DNA of 58,404 bases from a bacterium. Lineage in GTDB: Bacteria; Armatimonadota; Zipacnadia; Zipacnadales; UBA11051. A model generated the notes under the pieces. That model was not told the DNA's origin. It worked only from the letters and a program-made list of their open reading frames with translations, and searched no databases. Made by a program: the position numbers and the translations under genes. This document shows, one piece after another, positions 12,263 to 54,014 of the stretch. Numbering within the stretch: position 1 is the first letter of the stretch; every line of letters begins with the position of its first letter. The stretch covers positions 1 to 58,404 of the forward strand of contig JAJFUB010000160.1 in NCBI GenBank assembly GCA_021372615.1, in the 5' to 3' direction.

Positions 12263-12943
12263 ATGCAGAACGAAGTCCTGTACCGGCCGTCGTACTCGCT
12301 GCTGCGTCTGGTGATGGAGCCCGGGGAAGCTGTACTCGCCGAGTCGGGCGCCATGGTCTCCATGACCCCCAACATCCAGGTTCAGACCCAGGCCCGCGGC
12401 GGGATCCTGGGCGGGCTCAAGCGGGCGGTCCTCGGTGGCGAGAGCTTCTTCATCAACACCTTCACCTGCGCCGGCAGCCAGGGGGAGCTGACGCTGGCCC
12501 CGAGCCTGCCGGGCGATCTGATCCACGTGCCCATGGCCGGGGGAACCATGATGGTGCAGTCGGGGTCCTTCATAGCGAGTTCCCCGACGGTCAACACCGA
12601 CACCTCGTGGGCCGGCGCCAAGGGCTTCTTCTCCAAGGAAGGCCTGTTCCTGCTCAAGTGCGAGGGCCAGGGCGACCTGTTCATCTCCAGCTACGGCGCC
12701 ATCCACATGGTGGAGCTGCCGGCGGGCGCGGGGTACGTGGTAGACACCGGCCACGTCGTGGCCTTCGAGAGCACGATGACCTACAACGTGCGCGGCGTGG
12801 GCGGCCTGAAGCAGACGCTGTTCTCGGGTGAAGGGCTCGTCTCCGAGTTCGTCGGCCCGGGGCGGCTCTACATGCAGAGCCGCAGCTTCGAGGCCTTCCT
12901 GGGCGTACTCATCCCGAAGCTGCCGAAGCAGTCGAGCGGGTAA
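12263..12943 (+). CDS. AIM24/TIGR00266-family protein
   Basis: 226-residue protein matching the bacterial AIM24 family throughout. Diagnostic stretches are VMEPGEAVLAESGAMVSMT, GGLKRAVLGGESFFINTF, LPGDLIHVPM, FFSKEGLFLLKCEGQGDLF and AGYVVDTGHVVAFE. The family forms a trimeric beta-barrel-like fold; the bacterial role is unknown, and mitochondrial AIM24 affects inner-membrane organisation in yeast. Length is normal. AGGGAGG lies about 8 nt before the ATG. It sits 78 bp after the Gfo/Idh gene and upstream of a repeat cassette, so there is no informative operon partner. Confidence 0.92.
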   Translation: MQNEVLYRPSYSLLRLVMEPGEAVLAESGAMVSMTPNIQVQTQARGGILGGLKRAVLGGESFFINTFTCAGSQGELTLAPSLPGDLIHVPMAGGTMMVQSGSFIASSPTVNTDTSWAGAKGFFSKEGLFLLKCEGQGDLFISSYGAIHMVELPAGAGYVVDTGHVVAFESTMTYNVRGVGGLKQTLFSGEGLVSEFVGPGRLYMQSRSFEAFLGVLIPKLPKQSSG

Positions 12944-12953
12944 CGGCAGAGGC

Positions 12954-13436
12954 GAACGGCGGGAATCGGGAATCGGGAATCGGGAATCGGGTCTTGTGCC
13001 GACAAGGGGGTTAGCATGGAGCCGCGATCCATTGCAGATCACAAGGATCTGGATGCCTGGAAGGTCGCGCGGAGCCTGGTCAGCGACGTGTACGTCGCCA
13101 CTCGCGCCCTGCCTGAAGATGAGCGCTTCGGCCTGACCAGTCAGATGCGCCGGGCTGCGGTCTCCATTCCCTGCAACATCGCCGAGGGGTACGGGCGGGG
13201 TGCCAAGCAGGAATACATCCGCTTCCTGCGCATCGCCCGGGGGTCCGCTGCGGAACTGGAAACGCAGATCATGCTCTGCGAGGACCTGGGCTATCGTTTG
13301 GACTGCCTGGCCCTCCATGACAGCCTGGCCAGGTGTCGCCAACTCCTGAATGGCCTGCTGCGCTCCCTGCAGTAGACGGCACCAGGCGCACAAGGCCCGG
13401 CGGGGCCGAATCCCGAATCCCGAATCCCGCCGTTCG
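12954..13436. mobile_element. Putative repeat-bracketed cassette carrying a four-helix-bundle gene
   Basis: The left end has CGAACGGCGGGA followed by a 7-bp unit GGGAATC repeated four times (12961-12988). The right end has GAATCCC three times (13408-13428) followed by GCCGTTCG, so its reverse complement starts CGAACGGCGGGA as well. The ends are therefore inverted repeats with a shared 12-bp tip, enclosing one 360-bp gene. Other copies of the repeat without a gene lie at 45583-45613, 47688-47717 and 53952-53998. Mobility is inferred; no transposase lies inside. Confidence 0.5.
13016..13375 (+). CDS. Four-helix-bundle protein (23S rRNA intervening-sequence type, TIGR02436)
   Basis: 119-residue helical protein with the typical start DHKDLDAWKVARSLVSDVY, followed by LTSQMRRAAVSIPCNIAEGYGRG and FLRIARGSAAELETQIML. 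These stretches define the family first seen in rRNA intervening sequences and related to the Avd accessory protein of diversity-generating retroelements. It is basic enough to bind nucleic acid, but molecular function is not established. No reverse transcriptase or template/variable repeat pair is visible nearby. The gene lies between inverted GAATCGG-type repeats, with 20-70 bp on each side, suggesting it travels as a small cassette. Confidence 0.9.
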   Translation: MEPRSIADHKDLDAWKVARSLVSDVYVATRALPEDERFGLTSQMRRAAVSIPCNIAEGYGRGAKQEYIRFLRIARGSAAELETQIMLCEDLGYRLDCLALHDSLARCRQLLNGLLRSLQ

Positions 13437-13469
13437 TCGGCATCACTACCTGACAGGGGAGTCCACCCC

Positions 13470-15374
13470 ATGGGCTTTGGGCGAGGACCGGGCGGCCACG
13501 GACACGGCCGCGGGCATGGCGGCGGCCCCCACGGCAAGCGCCACCCCGGTGACAAGAGCGAGAACGACCCGCCGCCGCTGAAGATCACCGACCGGCGGAT
13601 GCTGGCGTGGTTCGGCAAGATCATCGGCCCACGCTGGCCCATCGTGGCTGTTGCCGTGCTGGCCATGGTGATCGGGGCGGTCCTGGACACCCCGGTCCAG
13701 GCCTACCTGCTGCGCTACCTCATAGACAAGGGCTTCCTGCTGCGTTGGCCCGCGGCGATCGTCTGGTCCATGGGGATGATCGGCCTGATGTTCCTGGGCA
13801 CGAACGCCATGAACGCCATCCGCATGAACCTGATGCACGTGCTGGGCCAGCGTCTGCTGTATGAGACGCGCGTGGACACGTACCGGCACCTGACCGAGCT
13901 GTCCCTCAGCTACTTCCACCGCAACAAGACCGGCGACATCATGTCGCGGCTGTCCAACGACGTGAACTCCGTCGAGGACATGGTCGTGCACGGTACGGAC
14001 GAGGTCATCAGCGATGGCCTCCGGGTGCTGCTGAGCGTCGGGACCATGTTCGCGATGAACTGGCACCTGGCGCTGCTGTCCCTGATCCCGCTGCCGGTGT
14101 TCCTGGGGGCCATGTACGTCTTCTCGAGGTTCGTGCGCCCGATCTATGGCAAGATCCGGGAAGAGCTGGGAGAGATCAACGCCCAGCTCGAGGAGCGCAT
14201 CGCGGGGATCCTGGTCATCAAGGCCTTCGCGCGCGAGAGGTACGAGTTCGACAACTTCGAGGGCGCCAGCCGCCAGTACTATGAGGCGAATGTCCGCGCC
14301 ATCCGCATGTGGGCCAACTTCTTCCCGGCGCTGAGCTTCATCACGTCTGTCGGGATGCTGCTGGTCATGTGGCGCGGGGGCCTGATGCTGAGCGCCGGCG
14401 AAAAGGCCGCCACCACCGGCACCATCATGTCCTTCGTGAATCTGCTGCAGGGCTTCTACTGGCGCTTTGGCGGCCTGGTGCGCGTCTACGACCTGTACAA
14501 CCGCGCCCTGGCGGCCCTGGCGCGCATCTTCCAGGTGCTGGAGGAGAAGCCGGAAGTCGAGGACAAGCCCGACGCCGCCGAACTGCAGGAAGTCCGGGGG
14601 CAGGTGGACCTGGAAGGTGTGACCTTCCGCTACCAGACCGGCGACATCGTGCTCAAGGATGTCAACGTCAGCGCCAAGCCGGGAGAGACGATCGCCCTGG
14701 TAGGGCGCAGCGGCGCCGGCAAAACCAGCCTCGTCAACCTCATCCCGCGCTTCTACGACCCCCTCGAAGGCATTGTCCGCGTGGACGGGGTAGACGTGCG
14801 CGAGGTCACCCAGGGGTCACTGCGCTCGCACATGGCCATGGTGCTGCAGGAGACCTTCCTGTTCAACGGCAGCGTCAGCGAGAACGTGCGCTACGGGCGG
14901 CTTGACGCGACCGACGAGGAGGTCCAGGCGGCCTGCGTGGCGGCCCATGCCGATGAGTTCATCCAGGACCTGCCCGAGAAGTACGACACCGAGATCGGCG
15001 AGCGCGGCGTGAAGCTGTCGGGCGGGCAGAAGCAGCGCCTGGCCATCGCCCGCGCCCTGCTGGCCGACCCCCGCATTCTCATTCTCGACGAGGCCACCTC
15101 GCTGGTGGACACCGAGGCCGAGCAGATCATCCAGAAGGCGCTGGAGAACCTGATGCGGCAGCGAACCACCTTCGTCATCGCCCACCGCCTGTCCACGGTG
15201 CGCCAGGCCGACAAGATCATCGTCATTGACGACGGCGCGGTGGTGGAGGAGGCCGACCACGAGACCCTCATGCAGCGGCAGGGCCTGTACGCCGAGATGG
15301 TCGAGCGGCAGTTCCGCATCGCTGAGGACTGGGGTCTGCAGGCCGGCGAGGGGATGATCGGGCCCGGGGGGTAG
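13470..15374 (+). CDS. ABC transporter, fused membrane and ATPase domains (exporter type)
   Basis: 634-residue half-transporter. Residues 1-30 are a cytoplasmic Gly/His-rich extension ([19 protein letters not shown]), unusual and possibly metal-binding. Six membrane helices lie at about 50-340, with the coupling segment [18 protein letters not shown]. The nucleotide-binding domain has Walker [10 protein letters not shown] (about 411-419), signature [16 protein letters not shown] (about 517) and Walker [10 protein letters not shown] (about 536), then the H-loop IAHRLST. Such proteins homodimerise in the inner membrane to export lipids, peptides or drugs; the cargo is unknown. The ATG at 13470 is favoured by AGGGGAG about 9 nt upstream. 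An in-frame ATG at 13350 would overlap the preceding gene and encode the repeat. Confidence 0.93.
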
Positions 15375-19461: not shown

Positions 19462-19950
19462 CTAGACGTGGTAGCGCCACGACTGCCAGGGCACGCTGCC
19501 GGAGTACGCGTAGTCTCGGCAGTCCCGCACCAGCCCCCTTCGTACCGGGTTGCCCCGGATGTAGGCAATCACCGCGTCAAGTGACTGGTGTGGCTTCATG
19601 ATCCGTGCATCGAAGCCGCGTTGCCACCGGATCCCCAGCTTCCGCTCCCAGAACCAACGACCAGTGATCTGCTTCAGCTCGACGATGGCCTGCCACACAT
19701 CGGCGGACTCGAGCATGCCTGAAGCCAGGACATGGGCGTGGTCCGGCATGAAGCAGAAGACGTCGCCTCGACTCGCATGCCTCGGGAGTACACTGCGCAG
19801 GACCGCTACGCACTCGTGGGCGACCTCGCCCCCAAGCACGGGACGGCGGTTCTCAACACAGAAGGTGAAGAAGACCGTGCCCACGCCAGCGTAGGCCTCC
19901 CGGGGTGGGCGGTGCGGATGGAACGACGACAAGAAGGCCTCGCGGTTCAT
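19462..19950 (-). CDS. REP-associated tyrosine transposase (RAYT, Y1/HUH family)
   Basis: 162-residue single-strand transposase. CFMPDHAHVLASG (about residues 66-79) is the HUH metal site with His71 and His73. Tyr130 in AVIAYIRGNPVRRGLV is the likely nucleophile, and the Trp-rich WFWERKLGIRWQRGFDARI segment is typical of RAYTs. These proteins bind and cut palindromic REP elements and are thought to spread them within a genome. The ATG at 19950 begins MNREAFLSSFHPHRPP; upstream in-frame codons are in repeat DNA. It is flanked by directly repeated REP units, which supports it as the cognate enzyme of that family. It appears intact. Confidence 0.92.
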   Translation of the reverse strand: MNREAFLSSFHPHRPPREAYAGVGTVFFTFCVENRRPVLGGEVAHECVAVLRSVLPRHASRGDVFCFMPDHAHVLASGMLESADVWQAIVELKQITGRWFWERKLGIRWQRGFDARIMKPHQSLDAVIAYIRGNPVRRGLVRDCRDYAYSGSVPWQSWRYHV

Positions 19951-26381: not shown

Positions 26382-26710
26382 CCGGGGACTGAAGTCCCCG
26401 GCTGGGGTGCGCTCCTGCGGAGCGCCAATCGTCCTTCGGACGAACGGCCCCGGCCCTGTGAAGTGCCAATCGTCCTTCGGACGAACGGCCCCGGCCCTGT
26501 GAAGTGCCAGTCGTCCTTCGGACGGACGGCCCTGGCTGTGCGAAGTGTCCGGTCATCCTTCGGGCGAACAAGTGCCGTTCGGGCTTGCCGTGAGCGTCCG
26601 CAGGACGCTTGGCGGCGCGAAGCGCCGCACCTCAGCCGGGCGCTTCAGCGCCCGTGACCGTGCGGCCCCCCTTCTTCTCACGGTCGTGCCGTTCCGCGTC
26701 CGCAGGACGC
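26382..26710. repeat. Array of short perfect hairpins
   Basis: At least eight independent perfect stem-loops with 2-3-nt loops: 26382-26401 (CCGGGGACT stem), 26409-26425 (GCGCTCC), 26430-26442, 26471-26483 and 26512-26524 (CGTCC-TTC-GGACG), 26594-26608 and 26696-26710 (GCGTCC-GCA-GGACGC), 26612-26628 (GCGGCGC), 26638-26653 (GGGCGCT). This fills the 454-bp gap 26292-26745, in which I see no gene. Confidence 0.85.
26422..26584. repeat. 41-bp tandem repeat, about 3.5 units
   Basis: Units begin at 26422, 26463, 26504 and 26545 with a constant 41-bp period. Units 1 and 2 are almost identical, unit 3 has several substitutions, and unit 4 is degenerate. Each unit carries one CGTCC-TTC-GGACG hairpin. 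There are no spacers between units. Confidence 0.85.
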
Positions 26711-45582: not shown

Positions 45583-45613
45583 GGCCGGTTCCCGGATCCC
45601 GAACCCCGCCGTT
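45583..45613. repeat. GAATCGG-family repeat between UroD-like and DUF4091 genes
   Basis: Reverse complement begins GAACGGCGGGG and continues with TTCGGGATCCGGGAACC, the degenerate 7-bp-period family found at both ends of the 12954-13436 cassette. It fills the short gap and touches the stop codon of the UroD-like gene. Confidence 0.65.
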
Positions 45614-46705: not shown

Positions 46706-47728
46706 TCATGGGGGCGGGGTCCCTGTCGGCTGCGCCGACACCCCGCCCTGGATCGCCTGGCATCGACGCACGACGGTCGGCGTCAGGGCGTAGTCTTCGA
46801 CGCCGCCACGGCTCGCCCTGCACGTCAGTATGTATCCCTCGTTGCCGCCGTAGCTCTTGTCATCAAAGATCAGGTTGCCCAGGCAGTAGGCGATCAGGCC
46901 CTTGCCGTAGCGGTCGATAGGCCCGCGTACGTGGGCATGGTGGCCGACGACGATCGTGGCGCCGAGGTCCACGGCCAGGTGCGCCATGTGCCGCTCCCAG
47001 TCGCTGGGCTCCCGCACGCCCTCCTGGCCCCAGTGGAACGACACGACCACGACATCACACCGCCGCGCCAGCGGGGGGACCGTGCGCCGCAGGTTCTCCT
47101 CGCTGAGCATCAGGATGCTCCAGCTCTGTGGGTCGGGCACGAAGTTGAGGTAGGGGAAGTTGCTGTAGCCGATGAAGCCGACGCGCACGCCGGGGCGGGT
47201 CACGACCGTCCCCGCCTCGGCCTGCTGCAGCGTCTGGCCCGCCCCGCAGACGGCGAACCCGCGCCCCTCCAGCCGCCGGCAGGTGTCCGCCAGCCCCACC
47301 CGCTCGGCGTCCACGGCGTGGTTGTTGGCGAGGTTGACGACGCTGATGCAGGCCTGTCCCAGAGCGTCTACCATGCCTCCCGTGCCCACGAGCGCGTTGA
47401 CGCGAGGGAAGCGGATCGGGCGGTCGGTCAGGGGGGACTCGAGATTGCAGAAGCCCAGATCGGCCTGGCGGAAGACCGGGGCCACGTTCGCGAAGGGGTA
47501 GTCATTGCCCTGCGTCGCGCACACGCGGCGCACATCGCGCCCGAGCATCACATCGCCGGCGAGGGCGAGGGTCACCGTCGGCGCGGGGCGGGGGGCGCAG
47601 CCGGACAGTAGGAGCAAGACGAAGACAATGGCTGCCAGCTGGAAGCTGGCGCTCCTACGGCACGGCACGGCGCGACACGGCACGGTGGCCGGTTCCCGCT
47701 TCCCGATCTCCGCCGTCCGCCTCAGCAT
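46706..47728 (-). CDS. CapA/PgsA-like metallophosphatase lipoprotein
   Basis: 340 residues. The lipobox LLSGC (Cys44) ends the leader, after an unusually long amino-part. The metallophosphatase fold of the capsule-synthesis CapA family is shown by LALAGDVMLGRDV, NLESPLTD, VNLANNHAVDAE, VVVSFHWGQEG, IVVGHHAHVRG and YCLGNLIFD. The family is linked to poly-gamma-glutamate or capsule synthesis; function here is inferred. Its ATG overlaps the last seven bases of the DUF3160 gene, so translation is probably coupled. Residues 3-14 and about 24-33 are encoded by repeat DNA, and residues about 327-339 by another palindrome. The short lipobox-proximal start is less certain than the body. Confidence 0.85.
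   Translation of the reverse strand: MLRRTAEIGKREPATVPCRAVPCRRSASFQLAAIVFVLLLLSGCAPRPAPTVTLALAGDVMLGRDVRRVCATQGNDYPFANVAPVFRQADLGFCNLESPLTDRPIRFPRVNALVGTGGMVDALGQACISVVNLANNHAVDAERVGLADTCRRLEGRGFAVCGAGQTLQQAEAGTVVTRPGVRVGFIGYSNFPYLNFVPDPQSWSILMLSEENLRRTVPPLARRCDVVVVSFHWGQEGVREPSDWERHMAHLAVDLGATIVVGHHAHVRGPIDRYGKGLIAYCLGNLIFDDKSYGGNEGYILTCRASRGGVEDYALTPTVVRRCQAIQGGVSAQPTGTPPP
46712..46748. repeat. Palindrome embedded in the 3' end of the capA-like gene
   Basis: GGGCGGGGT (46712-46720) pairs with ACCCCGCCC (46740-46748), and inside it GTCGGC (46725-46730) pairs with GCCGAC (46734-46739) around TGC. It encodes the end GGVSAQPTGTPPP of the CapA-like protein and stays in frame to the stop. Confidence 0.75.
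47634..47717. repeat. Repeat cluster encoding the amino-end of the CapA-like protein
   Basis: GCCAGCT (47634-47640) pairs with AGCTGGC (47644-47650), followed by GCTCCTAC. Short CACGG units lie at about 47659-47686. A GAATCGG-family copy (47688-47717) encodes most of residues 3-14. All are in frame with capA-like translation. Confidence 0.6.
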
Positions 47729-53947: not shown

Positions 53948-53951
53948 GACG

Positions 53952-53998
53952 GCGGGAATCGGGAGCCGGGATCCGGGAATCGGGATTCGGGAATCGGA
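53952..53998. repeat. GAATCGG-family repeat after queA
   Basis: CGGCGGGAATCGGGAGCC is followed by GGGATCCGGGAATC and GGGATTCGGGAATCGG, a 7-bp-period array five to six units long. It starts 4 bp after the queA stop. Same family as 12954-12991, 13408-13436, 45583-45613 and 47688-47717. Confidence 0.75.
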
Positions 53999-54014
53999 GC
54001 AGGAGGCTGGGCTG

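Follow-up and report, generated by a model that had tools for sequence, protein, structure and literature searches.

An S23-family gene between inverted heptamer arrays in an Armatimonadota genome: a probable mRNA-borne insertion cassette

The window considered here, a stretch of 58,404 nucleotides (contig JAJFUB010000160.1 of assembly GCA_021372615.1) from a bacterium of the phylum Armatimonadota, contains a small gene lying between two inverted arrays of a 7-bp unit, and the question raised by this locus is what such an arrangement is and how it came to stand between two host genes. A minimal mobile cassette, moved by a factor encoded elsewhere, had been proposed in an earlier note made from the letters alone. 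The analysis described below makes it quite probable that positions 12953-13436 are an insertion cassette, in which a PF05635 gene is held between element-specific inverted heptamer arrays, and that this single package between co-directional genes is an mRNA-borne intervening sequence.

The cassette is 484 bp long and is located on contig C160 of a 6.41-Mb genome (Table 1). A gap of 24 nt leads from the left array to the gene of 119 codons, which is followed after 30 nt by the right array. The inverted arms (12953-12983 and 13406-13436) comprise 31 nt at 90% complementarity and contain the tandem arrays (CGGGAAT, 4.6 units, at 12960-12991; CCGAATC, 3.4 units, at 13406-13429; 100% in both cases), while an edge, CGAACGGCGGGA / CCCGCCGTTCG, is common to both ends of the cassette. 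Each arm is homogeneous internally, and a single base in every unit distinguishes the two: GGGAATC on the left corresponds to GGGATTC on the right (in reverse complement), which leaves one A.A mismatch in every unit of the stem. The arm score of 23.5 compares with a maximum of 14 in 300 dinucleotide shuffles, and the 17-mer pattern of the arrays occurs eight times against 0.01 expected. Coordinates, arm complementarity, and shuffles thus agree with the earlier description of a four-helix-bundle gene enclosed by inverted arrays of 7-bp period with a common edge. An Rfam search of the window returned no match.

Table 1. Position and strand of the cassette, its flanking genes, and the gene-free arrays of the window.
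Feature	Position	Strand	Remarks
Upstream flanking gene, AIM24/TIGR00266 family	12263..12943	+	PF01987 237 bits, TIGR00266 251 bits; same strand as cassette
Left arm: edge CGAACGGC, then 4.6 CGGGAAT units; inward-reading G-rich strand	12953..12991	+	
Cargo gene, 119-aa four-helix-bundle protein, PF05635 23S_rRNA_IVP / TIGR02436	13016..13375	+	
Right arm: inverted copy, 3.4 CCGAATC units, then edge CCGCCGTTCG; pairs with left arm	13406..13436	-	
Downstream flanking gene, MsbA-type ABC exporter	13470..15374	+	PF00664, PF00005; same strand as cassette
Gene-free short degenerate CGGGAAT-family array, edge AACGGCGGGG	45590..45608	-	
Gene-free short degenerate CGGGAAT-family array	47694..47712	-	
Gene-free unpaired CGGGAAT-family array, between two genes	about 53950..54000 (array 53953-53997)	+	clear, strong copy

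The cargo protein matches the family models well above their cut-offs (PF05635, 115.7 bits, cut-off 33.8; TIGR02436, 115.5 bits, cut-off 24), and its AlphaFold2 model, built from 22 sequences, shows four helices at a pLDDT of 94.9. The residues R46, S50, N54, and E57, invariant in 22 relatives, fall in the motif GxxRxxxSxxxNxxE of S23 proteins (PMC3936711). Among structures in the PDB, the model is best matched by Xcc0516 of Xanthomonas campestris (2GSC; 43% identity, TM 0.91), with further matches to BT_0352 (2RLD) and then to Avd of the Bordetella phage retroelement (4DWL; TM 0.73-0.74, 9-10% identity) and, again with a TM of about 0.7, to the DGR reverse transcriptase complex. At the level of the fold, the earlier suggestion of a relationship to retroelement accessory proteins is therefore correct. 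Values of dN/dS between 0.03 and 0.41 in 11 pairs of PF05635 genes indicate that the protein is under purifying selection.

Matched arms prove to be widespread among such genes. The genome has seven PF05635 genes, six of which lie between matched inverted arrays, each of a different unit; by gene orientation, the units are AGTTGGG, GGGAATC, GGAACG-type, GAGAGGN, TCAGGGA-type, AGGGTCN, and a weak GGGAACN-type. In a 7x7 matrix of upstream against downstream flanks, own pairs score 25, 23.5, 18, 23.5, 19.5, 24.5, and 11, whereas the 42 wrong combinations average 9.9 and reach 13.5 at most, so that arms are a property of the individual element rather than of the genome. The absence of such repeats from other family members had been named beforehand as evidence against a cassette: the remaining six genes do lack the heptamer of the window, but five of them possess matched arms of another unit and one has weak arms. 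Across the phylum, 77% of 73 PF05635 loci reach an arm score of at least 12, against 4.5% of mispaired flanks, and the commonest period of the arm unit is 7, followed by 8. Beyond the phylum, in 78 named loci from Bacteroidota, Pseudomonadota, Planctomycetota, Nitrospirota, Acidobacteriota, Cyanobacteriota, and others, a score of at least 13 is attained by 53 (68%), the corresponding values being 4% for neighbouring ORFs in those loci (11 of 276) and 4.3% for mispaired flanks; PF05635 genes were sought in the collection with an alignment of three proteins, and phages gave no PF05635 match. Plasmid copies in Nostoc and Pseudanabaena, for instance, are bracketed by GGGAGTA, AGGGAAC, and TTAGCTT heptamers. 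The earlier notion of a minimal cassette bracketed by inverted heptamer arrays is thus upheld and applies far more widely than to this locus, in the same genome, the phylum, and other phyla. About 20-30% of the sampled PF05635 genes have no detectable arms, including the orthologous sites of Nitrospira and most of those of Halomonas; at these fixed sites the arms were either lost or never present, which implies that they are not indispensable once a site has become fixed.

Several simpler accounts of the arrays were considered and set aside. A single heptamer serving as a genome-wide transposon end is contradicted by the different unit of each element, and a coincidence of host composition by the background scores of mispaired arms from the same genome. 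A G-quadruplex is not the common denominator either, as many arms (AGCTTCT, AAAGTCG, GTTTAGC) are unable to form one. Recent jumping within the genome was likewise rejected, because no near-identical copies exist among the seven genes; the other copies are 34-49% identical to the window protein and scattered in the protein tree.

The three gene-free copies of the repeat that had been reported in the window all exist (Table 1), although each is single and unpaired, and only one is clear, the other two being short and degenerate. Exact matches to GGGANTCGGGANTCGGG number 37 genome-wide, at about 22 places, with none for the reversed control. A survey of 1.16 of the 6.41 Mb identified 81 arrays of period 7 or 8, mostly unpaired. 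A tandem repeat of another kind, with a 41-bp unit in 3.5 copies that are 89% identical, occupies window positions 26424-26569, and one Y1_Tnp locus (L233) is situated about 0.5 kb from a GGGANTC array.

From these 81 arrays, 11 inverted pairs were obtained, and their contents extend the cargo beyond PF05635: they enclose five PF05635 genes (one paired twice), one HigBA module, one GxxExxY gene, and, in three cases, gene-free hairpins. The GxxExxY gene (PF13366, PD-(D/E)XK family; L290 17839-18350, contig C55) represents a recurrent arrangement, given that 22 of 28 PF13366 genes in the phylum (79%) have an arm score of at least 13 against 8% of mispaired flanks, and their units (CACAGAGA and CGCAGATTA, for example) are 8-10 bp long (loci including L353 on contig C20, and L330-L359). 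HigBA as cargo rests on a single case, a HigB/HigA toxin-antitoxin module (PF05015 and TIGR02607; L168 1560-2435, in the stretch 1535-2440, contig C125) bracketed by inverted AAGGATGC octamer arrays; an identical octamer brackets HigBA and GxxExxY in this genome.

Comparison with related genomes bears on whether the cassette was inserted. In G001, the nearest relative compared, only a spacer of about 180 nt, with neither a PF05635 gene nor an array, separates the AIM24 gene (81% amino-acid identity) from the same ABC exporter; conservation across distant relatives, previously named as counter-evidence to mobility, does not occur, since the locus is already empty in G001. Among 61 Bosea genomes, a cassette is found between nuoC and nuoD in three species, its arrays extending to the junction on both sides of the insert, while other Bosea with flanks up to 97-98% identical have the clean junction nuoC-TGATCGGAGCCGGAC-ATG nuoD, without arrays. 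A stretch of 8-9 nt at the end of nuoC, AGGCGAAG, recurs in partly decayed form beyond the right arm of the insert, which suggests a short duplication; at the window cassette, no target-site duplication is readable. Clean empty sites in Bosea and G001 imply that arrays were not waiting there. Emptiness scored at these two sites, the window and nuoC/nuoD, thus identifies PF05635 cassettes as insertions as far as sequence comparison can do so. Gain is favoured over loss by Bosea, and the window site, with one relative only, would also allow loss. Many Bosea carry an unrelated GFA-family gene at nuoC/nuoD, again without arrays; the junction (L252-L281) is a hot spot for small inserts, being clean or occupied by an S23 cassette or the GFA-family gene.

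The host sites are diverse and mostly lie within operons. Family models confirmed insertions at sdhA/sdhB, rmlD/rmlA, rmlB/rmlD, nuoC/nuoD, and metK/ahcY, at pglZ/brxL of BREX, and within a glycosyltransferase/LAB_N pair in Nitrospira; a site between cas6 and cas4 was assigned from annotation or sequence, and a further cassette (L009) is inserted in the spacer of two tRNA genes, read by eye as tRNA-Ile and tRNA-Ala. Genes of the 23S_rRNA_IVP family have been reported in cas loci, beside cas4 and cas6 and between cmr genes (PMC3936711), and PF05635 genes near DGR and immunity loci (PMC10053308). On plasmid pPg_01 of Pseudanabaena galeata (L361), an S23 gene with long inverted TTAGCTT arrays stands at cas6/cas4 in a type I-D CRISPR operon, which suggests that the reported associations of S23 with cas reflect hitchhiking. 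The orientation of the gene inside its repeat was discarded as evidence because an inverted repeat is identical on both strands, and only co-direction with the neighbours is informative: both neighbours are on one strand for 44 of 49 cassettes, and in 42 of the 49 the cassette gene has that same direction, the baseline for adjacent ORFs being 68%. The sequences themselves firmly indicate bracketing by arrays, a specificity for PF05635 (as well as GxxExxY and one HigBA) not shared by neighbouring genes, arms matched inside an element but not across elements, empty sites devoid of arrays, insertion into operons, a joint change of the two arms at orthologous sites, and purifying selection on the protein.

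A striking case of tolerated insertion is provided by three Phycisphaerae loci (L106, L110, and L122), where dnaE2 contains the cassette in frame and another frame encodes a second gene. In L106 (4590-9836, JAJVHV010000005.1), the dnaE2 frame remains open for 1748 codons, with a match of 1293 bits to error-prone DNA polymerase, and accommodates two S23 genes nested in another frame together with several gene-free array hairpins, all in frame; its octamer hairpins translate as RRDGGTEG.../PSVPPSLRPSVP.... Of 80 S23 genes, 8 leave the frame in question open, which makes in-frame insertion unusual but reachable.

Orthologous sites also permit the history of the arms to be followed. The rmlD/rmlA sites form a single clade in the protein tree (99/98), yet the unit is the octamer GTGATTAR at four loci and the heptamer GGGTGAT at a fifth, in each case on both arms. 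At the dnaE2 site, GCGACGGA in L110 corresponds to GGGACGGA in L106 and L122, again on both arms, as do AGCGAAA and AGCCAAA at the flavobacterial sdhA/sdhB sites. The two arms therefore change in concert, as is expected under either a selected stem or copying of units templated by the opposite arm.

These observations can be accommodated by a model in which the cassette would ride on host transcripts. In RNA, the arms would pair into a stem of about 30 bp and shut the gene off from the flanking messages; the predicted fold of the transcript of 12944-13469 has the arms paired at its base (z = -4.0), and a construct made of the two arms, their near flanks, and a short artificial loop folds with z = -9.2. 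By analogy, the predicted stem may act as in the 23S rRNA intervening sequences that are cut by RNase III, and a gene closed off in this manner could be tolerated in operons, rRNA, tRNA spacers, and even a coding frame. Pressure for a paired stem, together with slippage and arm-templated copying of units, would keep the arms matched while the unit drifts, which would explain why each element has a unit of its own. Movement would be rare and could take place at the DNA or the RNA level through a factor encoded outside the cassette, a resident reverse transcriptase not being needed. Counter-evidence comes from the few elements that are antisense to their operon, such as the S23 cassette between nrdA and nrdB on plasmid pNe_5 of Nostoc edaphicum (L360), where no sense transcript would carry the gene. 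On this analogy, the element is best read as related to the 23S rRNA intervening sequences excised by RNase III but carried on mRNA, and not as cargo for a RAYT or a reverse transcriptase.

The movers named in the earlier note, a RAYT or a reverse transcriptase, find no support as resident drivers: an RVT_1 search of this genome gave no match, and its seven Y1_Tnp (RAYT-like) genes (L209, L229-L234, window 19552-19869), one of them in the window, are mostly flanked by ordinary REP-like palindromes. Among the 54 genomes with at least three PF05635 genes, RVT_1 is absent in 31 and Y1_Tnp in five. Retrotransposition, in which the S23 protein as a relative of Avd would recruit a reverse transcriptase in trans and the cassette would move through an RNA intermediate, is unlikely despite the structural similarity to Avd and to the DGR reverse transcriptase complex, the strong bias to transcribed, co-directional sites, and the rank of PF05635 as the commonest Pfam near DGRs (PMC10053308): besides the missing RVT_1 here and in those 31 genomes, GxxExxY and HigBA cassettes have similar arms and no Avd-like protein, and hitchhiking in operons can account for the link to immunity loci. 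Movement of the cassette in trans by a Y1 (RAYT/HUH) transposase with a recognition of the array hairpins must be judged slightly less probable again. PF05635 and Y1_Tnp copy numbers do correlate over 291 Armatimonadota genomes (Spearman 0.40, uncorrected for phylogeny and genome size), seven Y1_Tnp genes are at hand in this genome, and gene-free array hairpins resemble REPINs; nevertheless, the Y1_Tnp genes here are accompanied by palindromes and not by heptamer arrays, five of the PF05635-rich genomes dispense with Y1_Tnp, 18 genomes with at least four Y1_Tnp genes have no PF05635, and the arm sequences share no fixed motif.

Two further alternatives dispense with a dedicated mover. If the element were a vertically inherited regulatory unit, in which the four-helix-bundle protein binds the stem to control the operon and the repeats are an operator in place of insertion ends, then purifying selection, long retention at the sdhA/sdhB, rmlD/rmlA, and Nitrospira sites, and concerted change of the arms (which fits a conserved stem) would be readily understood; the unrelated host operons, rRNA and tRNA spacers, plasmids, and coding frames in which cassettes occur, the presence of other cargo between arms of the same kind, and the absence of the cassette from close relatives render this just as improbable as a Y1 transposase. 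Very doubtful is the idea of landing pads, in which intergenic DNA would generate heptamer arrays spontaneously and small genes would recombine into them. Single gene-free arrays are common enough (most of the 81 arrays in the surveyed 1.16 Mb are unpaired), and the octamer that HigBA and GxxExxY have in common would suit such a scheme, but pads do not predict inverted pairs, the clean empty sites in Bosea and G001 hold no array, and the arms of an element match each other better than those of other elements.

With the intervening-sequence reading retained, a wider proposal may be entertained at somewhat less than even confidence, namely that a class of cassettes common to many phyla is defined by inverted tandem arrays of 7-10 bp, whose private unit is equalised by concerted evolution, around interchangeable small cargo (S23, GxxExxY PD-(D/E)XK nuclease, or HigBA) or none. 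As intervening sequences at the RNA level, such cassettes would have spread through operons and even reading frames; their ends would be the heptamer repeats that have been known since the 1990s, and the associations of S23 with CRISPR, BREX, and DGR loci would amount to hitchhiking. A search of open-access literature yielded no description linking heptamer arrays to PF05635/S23 genes; the window element may be a variant of the intervening-sequence kind, and the wider class of cassettes may itself be new. Bacterial repeats that have long lacked an explanation would in this way be tied to small selfish-looking cassettes, and three puzzles would be joined: those of the intergenic bacterial heptamers, of the orphan S23/four-helix-bundle family, and of how 23S rRNA intervening sequences originated. 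That S23 genes occur within cas, BREX, and metabolic operons would also have a simple reason, a point that matters for guilt-by-association predictions. A sharp and testable question follows, namely what holds two arms 400 bp apart matched while their unit drifts.

Among known systems, REP palindromes keep to one fixed sequence within a family and lie on both sides of the RAYT. REPINs and their RAYTs (PMC3116915) resemble the present elements in having dispersed, hairpin-forming repeats, some of which bracket a gene, whereas the present arrays are tandem, change from one element to the next, and do not enclose the RAYT genes found in this genome. The DGR accessory protein Avd has the same four-helix-bundle fold as the cargo, but at an identity of 9-10% and with no reverse transcriptase in this genome; Xcc0516 (2GSC) of Xanthomonas campestris is far closer, with 43% identity and a TM of 0.91. 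Elhai et al. are said to have described small dispersed repeats in Nostoc heptamers. In Xanthomonas, GGGAATC arrays form 70-75 inverted convergent pairs per genome, mostly intergenic, and such heptamers were described as G-quadruplex repeats for which no tie to mobile elements was found (Rehm et al., 2015; PMC4692102). The window has the same heptamer, as tandem GGGANTC units in an inverted pair; no S23 link was described for the heptamers of that study (Xanthomonas GGGAATC; Nostoc GGGGA(C/T)T, STRR repeats), whereas here the arrays bracket PF05635 genes and many units are of a non-G4 kind. The nearest likeness is to the 23S rRNA intervening sequences with an S23/IVP ORF in Leptospira and Coxiella. 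Cassettes differ from these in occupying protein operons, tRNA spacers, or coding frames (in the window, between AIM24 and ABC exporter genes) and in having arms made of tandem 7-8-bp arrays whose unit differs per element. The Coxiella sequence, 428 nt in length, contains an S23 ORF within a 28-bp terminal stem and is excised by RNase III (PMC4990558); it and the 484-nt cassette of the window thus have in common the PF05635 family, a similar size, and terminal inverted repeats that can pair into a stem of about 30 bp.
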